Below are positions 24,093 through 30,057 of a stretch of DNA of 64,000 nt, piece after piece. Origin of the DNA: an uncultured Synergistales bacterium. GTDB lineage: Bacteria; Synergistota; Synergistia; Synergistales; Aminobacteriaceae. Position 1 is the first letter of the stretch; the number at the start of each line of letters is the position of its first letter. The stretch is taken from positions 205,035 through 269,034 of the forward strand of contig CAJOGI010000002.1 in the NCBI GenBank assembly GCA_905234075.1, given 5' to 3'. Made by a program: the position numbers and the translations under genes. A model generated the notes under the pieces. It was not told the DNA's origin, ran no database searches, and worked only from the letters and a program-made list of their open reading frames with translations.

Positions 24093-24121
24093 AAAACCCC
24101 CTGCTATACAGGGGGTTTCGA
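24093..24121 (-). terminator. terminator of the large surface protein gene
   Basis: AAACCCCC-n9-GGGGGTTT, a perfect 8-bp stem flanked by T/A runs, directly after the minus-strand stop. It may work in both directions. Confidence 0.75.
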
Positions 24122-24124
24122 TTT

Positions 24125-27100
24125 TTAATGCCTTTTCTTTAGTAGTACAAGCACTAAAGCAGATATTATTCCGAAGCCTGAACCGCATCCGCCGCCAGAG
24201 CCTCCAAGACTTGGGTAAGTCTCTTCTTCTAACGGCGTTGATGTAATTTCAACGCCCATGTCGCTGCTGTCAGCCGTGTCAGCCGTTGTAAAGCCTCCAG
24301 TACCTGCCGTTGTCGGGAACGGGTTGTAATAGTATTTGAATGACTTTGTACCAGCCGGAAGCGTTGCAGTCCCATTACTGTCAATCTCAGCCGTTCCAGT
24401 CGTGTCGTCAGAAAGAGTGTAGCTCACGGTCGTTGCTATTTGTGAAGTTTTGAACGGCGCAATATCCGGGCTGCTTGTTTCTTCATTATACGTTCCAGGA
24501 TAGTCGGTTTTGCCTTCCAATGAGGCCGCCCATAAATTCCATAAAAATTCAAAGAAATTCAATTTTCTCTTGAAGTTCGGTGCGCTTCTCTTCTGATTTC
24601 TTCCGCTGAAACCGCCGTTAGCTCCGCGTGTCATCTTCGTATCGCTCAGGTCGAGCCATAATAGCTGATTTTTAGAAATTGTTAATTTTGTAAGGTTTGA
24701 GCAGCCTTTGACGCTTAGATTTTTAAGCTCGCCTTGCGTATTTGAAGAGCTGTTGTCAACTTCAAGCGTTGTCAATGCTGTGCAGTTTTCAGCGTCGAGC
24801 TCTGTTACTGCAGTATTTCCGATATCAAGCGTAGTAATATTTGTGTTTCCCTTAATGTCTACTTCCTCTAGGGCTGTAGCACCATTTGCATCAACATTTT
24901 TGACATTTGCCGCTGAAGTTCCTGAACCAAGCGTGAGACTTGTAACAGCACTCTTTGTTAGCGTAACTGTCGTAATCGTAGCACCGACAAGGCTGACTGT
25001 TTTTACTGACGTATTCGACTCAAGGTTGATTGCTTCTAAATTTACGCCGGTAAGGCCGCTAATACTTGCCAACGTTGTTGTGGTTGACGTGATATTGAGC
25101 GTCTTAATGCCGAGATTTGTCGCAAGAGTTGCAAGGTCGCTCAAATTGCCTACGCCGTTAGGAAGTTTGAACTCTCCGCCGCTTGCCGCGATTGCTTTCT
25201 TTATTGCCGCTGTATCAGAGCCGAGAATGTCAGAGAGCGTTATTTCAGACTGTGCTTTTGTTTTCAAAAGTTCGTTGACTTTTTCACTGACTGCGGTCTG
25301 ATCGAGTTCTGCGCCGCTGTCTCCGATTGTAATGCCTTCAGTTACGTCAGCACTTTCAGTAGGAGTTGTGCCGGCATTAATTGTTACAGAGACAACATTA
25401 CTTGTAGCTGTTAAATCATTACTGCCGACTGTAGCCTTAGCGATGACGTAGTAATAAAGAGTTCCGGCTGTCGTTGTAGGGGCTAAATATGTTGCGCTTG
25501 TTGCTCCGTTGATAAGACTTCCGCCCGTTGTTGAGTTAGCAGAATTTGAATACCATTGGTATGTCGGCGTAATTGTCGCGTCAGGCGAAATTGCTGTCTT
25601 AGCCGTCAAAGTATTTCCGCTTGTTGCTCCTTTGCTTAATGATAAAGTTGTCGGAGTAACGTCAACAGAGAGCGTATATGTTACTTTCTCGTCTTCCTTT
25701 GCGGGGACAATTTCAGCATTTTTATCAAGGCCGAGATACATATTTGCTTTTTCACCTTGAGAATTTAAGTAACTTACCATTAACAATTCTTTGCTGTTAA
25801 TCGTATCAAGTTTTGAACCGTCAAGATTAACAAGTTTTCCCGTCTTTGATGTCGAATCAGCAAATGCAGGAGTTATAAACCAATTAAAGAAATTGTTATT
25901 GTGCTTCGATATTGTTGCCTGTTCCTGTAATTCTGAATCAGTAATTGAATAAACTGTCAGATTATCTGCCGAAGCACCCTGAATGTTATCATAAAGTTCA
26001 TCGGGCAATATAACTTTTGTTACATACCAGCCAGGTTCACTTGCATAAAGCTGCTTGAAACGTCCGACCATTTCGCTGTTATCGTTTTCAAGATAATTTA
26101 TTGCTGCCTCTTTTGTAGCGGAATCGTCAAAAATATTTCCGCGTTCAGTAAAATGAAATTCTTCTCCGCTTACACCGAGTGCTTCAGCAAGTAAATCTTC
26201 TGAAACGTTAGTTATGTCCTCGTCTGTCATTCGATGAGTTTCAGACATCGGAGGCTCATCAGTAAAACTCCAGACATAACTAGTATAATTCTCAGGATTA
26301 TTGGCTTCTCCATTTGTAAAATAGCTGTCATAGGTTGTCTCATCGAAACTTACTTTGTGAACTGTAAGATTAACATGAATAGCTGTATATACTCCCAGCT
26401 TTATAGGGTTTGGCAATGTTAATGTGCCGCTTGGCTTGAATTGTTCTTGCCAATTTTGCTGATAATTATCGTCAATAACAAAGTTTGATAATTCTCCCCA
26501 GCTGCCTCCGTTTTCTGTATTCACGCTTATGCGAATCTCGCACGCCACGCCGGGATTGTAAGGTGTGTTTAAGTCGCCGGACTGCACGAGTCTATATTTA
26601 ACCGCCGTCAGCTCTCCTGCATCGTTTGAAACAATTTCAACATACGGGAAAAAACCGCCTGTTGCCTTATCGAATTGCTGTGCAAGGTTTTTAGATCCGT
26701 ATATTTTCCCGCTGCCGCTAAGGTCGCTTGCTTCACCGGTAAAATTCCAGCTTACATTTTTGCCGTTTAGAGAGCCCGTTTCATCAACAAACTTTGTTCC
26801 CCTTGTGGAATAACTGTCATTGACATAAGTCCAATGTTCCTTGTGGTATCCTTCAGTCATATAAGAAAATTCAATATATGAAGACCCTAAAGCCGTTCTG
26901 GTGTGCAACGGTAAAGTTATATCGACATCGGGCGAGTTAAATTCTCTGACCAGTTCGCCGTCCACGTCAATAATTTTGAACGTTCCGCCCCCGTGAATAG
27001 TCAGCGTTCCTTCATCAGTTAAATATTTAGCATCAACAAAAGGAGGCCACATTGCTATATTGCTGACATCAGTTGCTTCATACCGTGCGTACGTATAATC

Positions 27101-28120
27101 AGATTTCCCGTCAGTTAATCCGGCAGCTACGCTGTAAGTTCCGCCGTTATAAGCTGAATTTAGTTTAGCGTTGACCTGTGAAGAATTTAAGCTAATAAAA
27201 CGCCACTGATACAGAGTATTTTTGTCTTCACCTATGTAATATCTTACAATAGTACAATACGGAACGCCTCTAAATTCGGTTGTAATTGTAACGTCTCCTG
27301 AAGCTGTATCTCCTGACTTAATTGTAGCTTCAATTTTGTCATTGTAACTGGACATGCCGCTATTTACACCGAAAATACTGACTATTTCAAAGTGAATATC
27401 ATCTGAGAGAGTTATTGCTGTCCTAATATCAGATGACTTAACAAGTTTCCAGTTTATACCGACAAGTTTTATATCTCCGGCCCCGATAGTTCCCTGCATT
27501 TTATATTCAATACTCGGAACAAAATCAGCAAGCTGTTGAGCTGTCGTCTTTAATTCTGGAATGCTTGCACTGCCTGTTTCACTTGGATAATATTCAGGGT
27601 ATCGCCAAGTTACGTTGACTCCGGACAGTCCTGTTTCAGCATCATTCACAAAATGAATCCAATCACCCTCGCTATTTGTCGGGACATAAGCTGATTTATT
27701 AATTCCCCACCTAAGCGAATCATTTTCATCGTAAACAACGCTTCGAGCCTGCGCGATATTAAACGTTCTTGCAGTATCATTGACACTTTCAATTTTATAA
27801 CTGTTCCAGAACGAATAGCTGCCTCCGCTGAGGTCAAAAGAAATGCTGGGAGGGTTAAAACTTTCGATAGGCGGCATGCCGTCATCATCAGAGACAACCT
27901 CATCAGAGACGACCTCAAGAGTTACGCAAAAGAACTTAGCAGTATCATAACTAACTCCTACTGGAACATAATCTGTGCCGGCAGTATTCACGTAATCTTT
28001 GCTTTGATCGTAAATATTATAAACGAAAGATTCATGAATAGTAACAAGATGAGGTTCAGCAAGAGCCGATGAACAAAACGCGAGCAAAAATATGGAAAAT
28101 ATGAGGAATTTTTTGACCAT
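24125..28120 (-). CDS. large Synergist-CTERM surface protein with Ig-like and leucine-rich regions
   Basis: 1331 aa from the ATG at 28120, 9 bp after GGAG; an ATG three codons earlier is too close to it. A signal peptide (about 1-22) is followed by a long beta-rich region (25-810) with three internally similar blocks (GIYSVAAG-like and SISFDLSGGSYSFW-like strands, each near aromatic VNDS motifs). An Ig-like domain (about 815-905; YQWYSNSAN, SATYLAPTT) and a leucine-rich repeat stretch (about 1005-1160; LEAINLES, LEEVDIKGN, ITTLDIGN, LTTLEVDN) come next. The C-terminus is GGGCGSGFG, a membrane helix and LLKKRH, the Synergist-CTERM tail. Likely a processed cell-surface adhesin or binding protein. 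Its promoter carries a G9 tract. Confidence 0.85.
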   Translation of the reverse strand: MVKKFLIFSIFLLAFCSSALAEPHLVTIHESFVYNIYDQSKDYVNTAGTDYVPVGVSYDTAKFFCVTLEVVSDEVVSDDDGMPPIESFNPPSISFDLSGGSYSFWNSYKIESVNDTARTFNIAQARSVVYDENDSLRWGINKSAYVPTNSEGDWIHFVNDAETGLSGVNVTWRYPEYYPSETGSASIPELKTTAQQLADFVPSIEYKMQGTIGAGDIKLVGINWKLVKSSDIRTAITLSDDIHFEIVSIFGVNSGMSSYNDKIEATIKSGDTASGDVTITTEFRGVPYCTIVRYYIGEDKNTLYQWRFISLNSSQVNAKLNSAYNGGTYSVAAGLTDGKSDYTYARYEATDVSNIAMWPPFVDAKYLTDEGTLTIHGGGTFKIIDVDGELVREFNSPDVDITLPLHTRTALGSSYIEFSYMTEGYHKEHWTYVNDSYSTRGTKFVDETGSLNGKNVSWNFTGEASDLSGSGKIYGSKNLAQQFDKATGGFFPYVEIVSNDAGELTAVKYRLVQSGDLNTPYNPGVACEIRISVNTENGGSWGELSNFVIDDNYQQNWQEQFKPSGTLTLPNPIKLGVYTAIHVNLTVHKVSFDETTYDSYFTNGEANNPENYTSYVWSFTDEPPMSETHRMTDEDITNVSEDLLAEALGVSGEEFHFTERGNIFDDSATKEAAINYLENDNSEMVGRFKQLYASEPGWYVTKVILPDELYDNIQGASADNLTVYSITDSELQEQATISKHNNNFFNWFITPAFADSTSKTGKLVNLDGSKLDTINSKELLMVSYLNSQGEKANMYLGLDKNAEIVPAKEDEKVTYTLSVDVTPTTLSLSKGATSGNTLTAKTAISPDATITPTYQWYSNSANSTTGGSLINGATSATYLAPTTTAGTLYYYVIAKATVGSNDLTATSNVVSVTINAGTTPTESADVTEGITIGDSGAELDQTAVSEKVNELLKTKAQSEITLSDILGSDTAAIKKAIAASGGEFKLPNGVGNLSDLATLATNLGIKTLNITSTTTTLASISGLTGVNLEAINLESNTSVKTVSLVGATITTVTLTKSAVTSLTLGSGTSAANVKNVDANGATALEEVDIKGNTNITTLDIGNTAVTELDAENCTALTTLEVDNSSSNTQGELKNLSVKGCSNLTKLTISKNQLLWLDLSDTKMTRGANGGFSGRNQKRSAPNFKRKLNFFEFLWNLWAASLEGKTDYPGTYNEETSSPDIAPFKTSQIATTVSYTLSDDTTGTAEIDSNGTATLPAGTKSFKYYYNPFPTTAGTGGFTTADTADSSDMGVEITSTPLEEETYPSLGGSGGGCGSGFGIISALVLVLLKKRH

Positions 28121-28154
28121 ACAAAACATCTCCTTACTAAAAATTTATACGGTC

Positions 28155-28182
28155 ATATTACCCCCCCCCTTGAATCCGTCAA
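28155..28182 (-). promoter_or_regulatory. promoter with G9 homopolymer in the spacer
   Basis: On the minus strand, TTGACG (28182-28177), then GATTCAA, then nine G (28169-28161), then TAATAT (28160-28155). The spacer is 16 bp; one extra G would make the optimal 17. This is the layout of phase-variable promoters. Confidence 0.75.
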
Positions 28183-28224
28183 GATAGTATTTTGTATTTT
28201 TGTAATTTAGATAAAAATAAAAAA

Positions 28225-28240
28225 GTTAGGAGTTAGGAAA
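28225..28240. repeat. heptamer pair
   Basis: GTTAGGAGTTAGG just past the aspS stop, purine-rich on the strand opposite to aspS. Confidence 0.55.
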
Positions 28241-28248
28241 TTTTATAA

Positions 28249-30057
28249 CTATTCCGCAACGACTTTTATAGCAAGTTCGTCAAGCCTTTCCTGTTCGACT
28301 GCGTCAGGCGCGTTCGACATCAGGCACTGGGCCTTTTGTGTCTTCGGGAATGCCATAACATCGCGGATTGAATTTCCGCCGCAAAGCAGCATAACGAGCC
28401 TGTCAACTCCTAAAGCTAAACCGCCGTGCGGAGGTGTCCCGTATGAAAGAGCATCAAGGAAAAATCCGAAGCGTCTCTTTGCCTCCTCAGGAGTAATTCC
28501 GAGTGCCTTGAACAATCTCGCTTGAACTTCGGGGTCGTGTATTCTGATTGAGCCTCCGCCGACCTCGTTGCCGTTCAATACGCAGTCATAAGCGCGTGCT
28601 AAAGCGTGCTCCGGGTCCTCGTCAAATGGCGTGTCGTTGTCAAGTGCCGGCGAAGTGAACGGGTGGTGCATGGCCGTCCAGCGTTTTTCTTCCGCGCTCC
28701 ACTCAAATAACGGAAATTCAGTAACCCATAAAAATTTCCAGTTATCGGGCGAATCGTCGAATAAATCCTCGCGTTTTTTGCCAAGCTCAAGCCGTAACGT
28801 TCCTAAAATTTCGCAGGCTTTTCCGCGTGAAGCGTGAGCAACAATGAATAAAGCGTCATCGGGCTGCATTCCTCCGAGTTCGCGCACCTTATCAACTTCT
28901 TCGGGCGTTAAAAATTTCACGAGCGGGCCTTTTAATCCGCCGTCTTTATATAAAAAGTTCGCAAGCCCTGAAGTTCCGAGTTTAATCGCTCTGTTTTCAA
29001 GGTCTAAAATTTCCTTGCGCGATAACGAAGCTCCTCCGGGAAGCCTCAAGCCTCTGACGACTCCGCCGTTCTCAAGAATTTTTTTGAACGGTTCAAAGCC
29101 GGAATTTCTGAAAGCGTCGGCTAAGTCGCAAAGCTCTAATTTGACTCTCAAATCCGGCTTGTCGCTTCCGTACTTGTCCATAGCTTCCCAATAAGGCATT
29201 CTGATAAACGGCGTGGGAATATCAACGCCGCGAATTAATTTGAAAAGGCCCTTCATATAGCCTTCAATTAAATTCATGATGTCGTCTTCAACGATGTAGC
29301 TCATCTCAATGTCAACCTGAGTAAATTCCGGCTGACGGTCGGCGCGTAAATCCTCATCTCTGAAGCAGCGTGCAATCTGATAATATCTGTCAAAGCCGCT
29401 GATCATTAAAATCTGCTTGAATAACTGCGGCGACTGCGGCAAAGCATAGAAGCACCCTTGATTGACACGGCTGGGAACAAGATAATCCCTCGCGCCCTCC
29501 GGCGTAGCTTTTGTGAGCATGGGAGTTTCAAGCTCAACAAAATTTCTTTCGCTCAAATAATTTCTCGTGAACTCGTTGATTTTTGCGCGGGTACGCATGT
29601 TCTTTTGCATTTTCTCGCGTCTCATATCGAGATAACGGTATTTAAGCCTTATATTTTCGTCTACATTGTCAGTTGCATCGCCGATCTCAAACGGCAGCGG
29701 CTTGGCCTTCGACATTACAAGAAAATCGTGCGCAACGATTTCAATATTTCCTGTTTTTAATTCGGGGTTCTCCGTGCCTTCGGGGCGTATTCTCATTCTG
29801 CCTTTAACGGCGACGCAATACTCATTTCGCAAAGTTGCGGCAAGCTCATGAATTTCTTCGGGAGTTTCGGGAAGCGACGGGTCAAAAACAACTTGAATAG
29901 GCCCTGTCCAGTCCCATACTTCAATAAAAATTATTCCGCCCAAGTCGCGTCTCGCTCTTACCCAGCCGTTAGCACGGACTTCTTTGTCCGCGTCGGCTTC
30001 GGTAAAAAGACCGCATAATGACGTTCTCTGCCAAGTCTTGTCAAAAATTTTAGCCAT
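28249..30057 (-). CDS. aspS: aspartate--tRNA ligase (bacterial type)
   Basis: 602 aa, full bacterial AspRS with the OB anticodon domain (about 1-110; [19 protein letters not shown]), the catalytic core split by a GAD insertion domain (about 290-410) and class II motifs: [48 protein letters not shown] and [15 protein letters not shown]. Whether it is discriminating or also charges tRNA-Asn is not certain from sequence alone. ATG follows AAAGGAAA. It diverges from the KduD-like gene. Confidence 0.97.

Follow-up and report, generated by a model that had tools for sequence, protein, structure and literature searches.

A G9 tract inside the −35/−10 spacer of a probable phase-variable surface-protein promoter in an uncultured Synergistales bacterium

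The locus and its promoter-like segment

The window, that is, the whole analysed stretch of 64,000 nucleotides from an uncultured Synergistales bacterium, carries on its minus strand a gene for a large secreted protein of 1331 aa. Ahead of this gene two promoter-like hexamers are separated by a spacer containing an uninterrupted run of nine G. The features of the locus are listed below in the numbering of the window.

24094–24118, no strand assigned: GC-rich perfect hairpin AAACCCCCTGCTATACAGGGGGTTT directly after the gene of the 1331-aa protein (from sequence), a probable terminator
24125–28120, minus strand: gene of the 1331-aa secreted protein, with a signal peptide, a long N-terminal region common within the genus, an LRR-like region and a Gly-rich hydrophobic Synergist-CTERM-like end (LRR and CTERM matches lie below curated cut-offs)
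28130–28135, minus strand: Shine-Dalgarno sequence AAGGAG, 9 nt upstream of the ATG at 28120 (direct read), in the same arrangement in homologues
28155–28160, minus strand: −10-like hexamer TAATAT, directly abutting G9 (direct read)
28161–28169, minus strand: G9 homopolymer, proposed slippage tract within the spacer (direct read), also G9 in both close homologues and invariant in the alignment
28170–28176, minus strand: GATTCAA, the constant 7-nt part of the spacer (direct read), 7 ± 1 nt in most of the genus-wide set
28177–28182, minus strand: −35-like hexamer TTGACG (direct read), TTGACG also in the G009 homologue, TTGCTA in G007 and TTGACA in most members of the genus-wide set
28249–30057, minus strand: upstream gene for a class II (D/K/N) tRNA synthetase with a GAD domain (domain and sequence reading), probably aspartyl-tRNA synthetase

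The gene most likely starts at the ATG at 28120 rather than at the in-frame ATG at 28129, because AAGGAG precedes the former by 9 nt but abuts the latter; the 1331-aa reading made in the first-pass annotation was thus right. Comparison of the protein with Pfam and NCBIfam gave weak LRR-like matches only, and its C-terminus (GGSGGGCGSGFGIISALVLVLLKKRH) scored 7.1 bits against TIGR04564 (Synergist-CTERM), for which the cut-off is 22.5. The same annotation had named the product a Synergist-CTERM protein; the resemblance stands, while membership in the family does not, and we call this end only Synergist-CTERM-like. No named relatives of the gene were found in GTDB genomes. No terminator-like site was found on the minus strand in the 28130–28248 region, and read-through from the tRNA synthetase gene into the gene of the 1331-aa protein is possible.

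From 28182 to 28155 the minus strand reads TTGACG, GATTCAA, nine G (GGGGGGGGG) and TAATAT, exactly as had been noticed on first inspection, with a spacer of 7 + 9 = 16 bp, 9 bp of which are G, so that G10 would bring it to 17 bp. The segment lies approximately 35 nt upstream of the start codon. The full promoter pattern has one match in the window and none in 100 dinucleotide shuffles, and scanning of both strands bore out that the 64 kb contain no G/C run of 7 or more besides this tract. The whole 1.84-Mb genome contains two tracts of G8 or more, both of them G9. The two hexamers agree with the consensus at 9 of 12 positions, a level common by chance. What is found at 28155–28182 corresponds to a promoter of the porA type: a homopolymer of at least 8 between −35 and −10, a spacer (16 bp with G9) close to the 16–18 bp optimum, where one unit matters, and, within range, a ribosome site and start codon (AAGGAG, ATG 28120) of a surface product with a signal peptide recognized by inspection. 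An alternative −10 element further downstream (TATAAA/TATAAT, 5–15 nt later) was considered and rejected, its distance to −35 being different in the three species compared below. The TA of TAATAT is not an independent proof of the −10 element, since in this genus TA follows many tracts of G8 or more, including those within genes. What speaks independently for the promoter is the TTGAC box, together with the spacing and the start of the gene.

Conservation of the tract and recurrence of the design

The closest homologues of the 1331-aa protein belong to two other species of the same genus, G007 (64% identity, residues 2–595) and G009 (52% identity, residues 3–810). Upstream of the G009 gene we found TTGACG, AACAAAT, G9 and TAAACT, and upstream of the G007 gene TTGCTA, AAACTCT, G9 and TAAAAT, each with a spacer of 16 bp. 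In the three-species alignment the block GGGGGGGGGTAA (G9TAA) is invariant, while the adjoining non-coding DNA has largely diverged. Genes on the 5′ side of the tract are different: the probable aspartyl-tRNA synthetase in the window, an NADH-dehydrogenase-like membrane subunit in G007 and a glucarate-dehydratase-like gene in G009, the last two identified by reading the sequence. Since G9 is kept beside different upstream genes, the tract travels with the gene rather than with the place, and its conserved position between diverged flanks in three species is not a matter of chance. Its length is G9 in all three homologues, the species of the window being represented by one assembly. No G tract precedes the more distant homologues within the upstream DNA that was examined.

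The genus, which has at least 43 species, was sampled with 43 genomes. The pattern TTGAC, 5–10 nt, G8 or more and TAnnnT was matched 22 times, at 21 sites, while the reversed pattern had no match; without the −10 requirement, TTGACA stands shortly before the tract in 25 cases versus 0 in the control. The remaining 145 genomes of the phylum yielded 4 matches to the same pattern and 2 to its control, so that the design is largely a feature of this genus. Within the genus-wide set the gap from −35 to the tract is mostly 6–8 nt, while the tract varies from G8 to G13 and the spacer from 13 to 21 bp (mostly 15–21), as would be expected if the tract length alone moves. On the 3′ side most open reading frames have a Shine-Dalgarno site and begin 25–76 nt past the tract; many of them possess a signal or lipoprotein N-terminus, and the sites mostly precede secreted or surface genes. 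Homologous tracts of different length were also registered: G11 and G8 in promoters of G041 and G056 (83% identity over 284 bp), and G8 in G058 and G11 in G009 (90% over 308 bp). Among promoters of the same design other than that of the window, the variation comprises G8/G11 and G11/G12.

A C-tract promoter set also exists in the genus (11 matches versus 0 in the control), most members sharing TTGACnnATA-C9-12-nTAACGTATAAT. The promoter-like motif TTGACnnATA-C9-12-nTAACGTATAATTGC...GTCAAG is conserved before secreted and other genes. Almost every copy has 19–22 bp between −35 and TATAAT, and the two ends of the motif make up a TTGAC/GTCAA inverted repeat. In two species flagellin-like genes (MRIANNVPAL...) have G9TAAC approximately 52–55 nt upstream of the start, which suggests that flagellin may be phase-variable.

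Elsewhere, the GTDB-wide pattern scan, which had no control and provides examples only, revealed the same spacer design, among the matches listed, in unrelated gut and animal bacteria. G tracts of several such genomes, chosen for having one promoter of this kind, were then sampled in small numbers with no promoter requirement. In Streptobacillus notomytis all 6 of 6 sampled tracts belong to TTGACA-n-G10-11-TATAAT promoters; in a termite Alphaproteobacteria MAG and a Clostridia MAG most of them are in TTGACA-G9+-TAnnnT-like promoters, and in the Helicobacter and Treponema samples few are promoter-like. No paper on phase variation in S. notomytis was found in the literature searched.

The TA flank and tracts within genes

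In the 43 genomes TA directly follows 431 of 998 G8+ tracts (43%), while the mirror control, AT before the tract, gave 110; in the sister genera of the family the respective numbers are 97 of 1617 (6%) and 93 (TA and mirror counts were moved by hand into the calculating script). Both long tracts of the window's genome have TA, and in G058 it follows 58 of 60 tracts (97%), including 38 of 39 intragenic ones. In the latter genome the frequency of TA is 3–9% after runs of 1–5 G and exceeds 90% after 8 or more. A stop-codon or codon cause was rejected, as it is TA, and not TAA alone, that is kept, and it falls in all three codon positions. Neither did a repeated element account for it: no common flank extends beyond approximately 5 nt on each side, save for a slight enrichment in T at +7 to +9. 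This bias in both promoters and genes is new to us and we have no explanation for it. One can suppose that a long G tract in this genus is an element of definite form (G8-13 and then TA) that stands either in a promoter or, in any frame, inside a gene. This would imply a lineage-specific process instead of independent tract origins, namely a slippage-promoting, tract-making or tract-keeping activity reading TA; at present we consider this rather doubtful.

A census of five genomes of the genus gave 118 distinct tracts, many of them intragenic. In most of these the coding strand carries the G; some are in frame, and across others the frame is broken. Among the products of the genes bearing them are glycosyltransferases (GT2, GT11, group 1), an acyltransferase, FkbM methyltransferases, a CDP-glycerol glycerophosphotransferase, and beta-helix and LRR surface proteins, a repertoire usual for phase variation. 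The length of homologous tracts with 83–95% identical flanks is not constant, for instance G8 vs G11 and G11 vs G8. Several FkbM-type methyltransferase paralogues contain intragenic G8–G10 at homologous positions and of different lengths. The other G9 of the window's genome (C2:100332-100340) lies where a gene for a hybrid sensor kinase/response regulator ends (3′ side), approximately 10 nt before the next ATG, and G009 has G8TA at the equivalent place with diverged flanks. The genus has MutS1, as do 182 of 188 genomes of Synergistota, so slippage is not boosted by loss of this gene; loss of mismatch repair as the source of many tracts is thus ruled out for MutS1, the mismatch-repair gene which this comparison covered.

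Interpretation and comparison with known systems

Most probably the segment 28155–28182 is a sigma-70-type promoter of a large surface or secreted protein, in which the spacing between −35 and −10 is set by a slippage-prone G tract, as in porA, opc and fetA. Replication slips would add or remove one G and thereby move the spacer from 16 bp to 15, 17 or 18 bp, around the sigma-70 optimum; binding of RNA polymerase and transcription would then change reversibly, and a clonal population would come to contain cells with different amounts of the 1331-aa protein. Random switching of this protein up and down is probable, because G9 is kept between the promoter halves in related species despite the changed surrounding DNA. 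The first-pass annotation had already proposed a phase-variable promoter as probable. This structural inference is supported by what was directly observed, that is, by the anatomy of the site, the position of its tract in three species, the genus-wide recurrence with variable tract length and zero controls, the length differences between homologous tracts, and the gene repertoire with the surface character of many of its members. As judged from sequence, the promoter is presumably used and its tract would switch in this species with some slippage rate. By analogy with porA the G9 state (16 bp) may be a low or intermediate one, and since all three homologues are at G9 and 16 bp, this may as well be a working length here.

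The uniform length in 3 of 3 homologues, the same G9 and 16-bp spacer in each, would also be seen if the promoter were real and its tract fixed, forming a stiff or melting-resistant spacer held by selection at one length without switching. The presence of MutS1 and just two G8+ tracts in the window's genome fit such a reading. It is unlikely, however, as the same design elsewhere in the genus has tracts from G8 to G13 with many spacer lengths, homologous tracts do vary, and uninterrupted runs of 8 or more G are intrinsically unstable. A chance G run in an intergenic gap, with the gene transcribed from an upstream or some other promoter, is scarcely credible: the upstream gene does lie on the same strand with no clear terminator between, and the hexamers are imperfect, but the arrangement is conserved across species having different upstream genes and recurs through the genus against zero controls.

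The TA flank gives rise to one more possibility, that the functional unit is the G8-13TA element itself, made or kept by a sequence-specific process, the promoter spacer being one of several of its uses. The excess over sister genera, the occurrence after nearly all intragenic tracts of G058 in every codon position, and the abrupt step with run length in that genome are what this idea would predict, but it does not account for the 25 tracts, against none in the control, that TTGACA precedes at a constant short distance. As the primary explanation we find it very unlikely; it can be true together with the promoter-spacer reading.

The proposed promoter at 28155–28182 has a known, porA-type design and belongs to a group, Synergistota, for which the open-licence papers searched gave no account of simple-repeat phase variation. 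Taken with its genus-wide relatives, the locus suggests that uncultured bacteria have a phasome, made up of promoters and of genes for surface glycans and surface proteins, which metagenome reads can reveal. Absent in sister genera and new to us, the TA rule is a testable puzzle on the origin and persistence of contingency tracts.

The known cases of opc and fetA have poly-C on the sense strand, whereas the tract here is poly-G, the genus having a C-tract promoter set as well. In porA, opc and fetA the homopolymer lies between −10 and −35 and is thought to alter sigma-factor binding (PMC2791445). For porA of Neisseria meningitidis it is poly-G, and 11G, 10G and 9G correspond to high, intermediate and low levels of the surface protein (PMC3639595). 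The likeness to the present locus consists in a homopolymeric G tract within the −35/−10 spacer of a surface-protein promoter, with 9–11 G in porA (PMC3639595). The differences are another phylum, a switch that is here only predicted, a genus-wide set of such promoters, and a tract directly abutting the TA of −10. Of the Neisseria examples originally invoked, porA and nadA, only the former holds, since nadA has TAAA repeats upstream of the core promoter that affect repressor/IHF spacing (PMC2791445). It shares with our locus transcriptional phase variation by repeat number; the tract described here is, however, not a TAAA tetranucleotide but poly-G inside the spacer. Contingency genes of Campylobacter and Helicobacter fall into surface-glycan, methyltransferase and surface-protein classes. 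Homopolymers in coding sequences form contingency loci in these bacteria, and a report on H. canadensis describes many tracts in one genome (PMC2823697). Compared with such coding-tract loci, the genus described here is distinguished by the TA-flank bias and by retention of MutS1.
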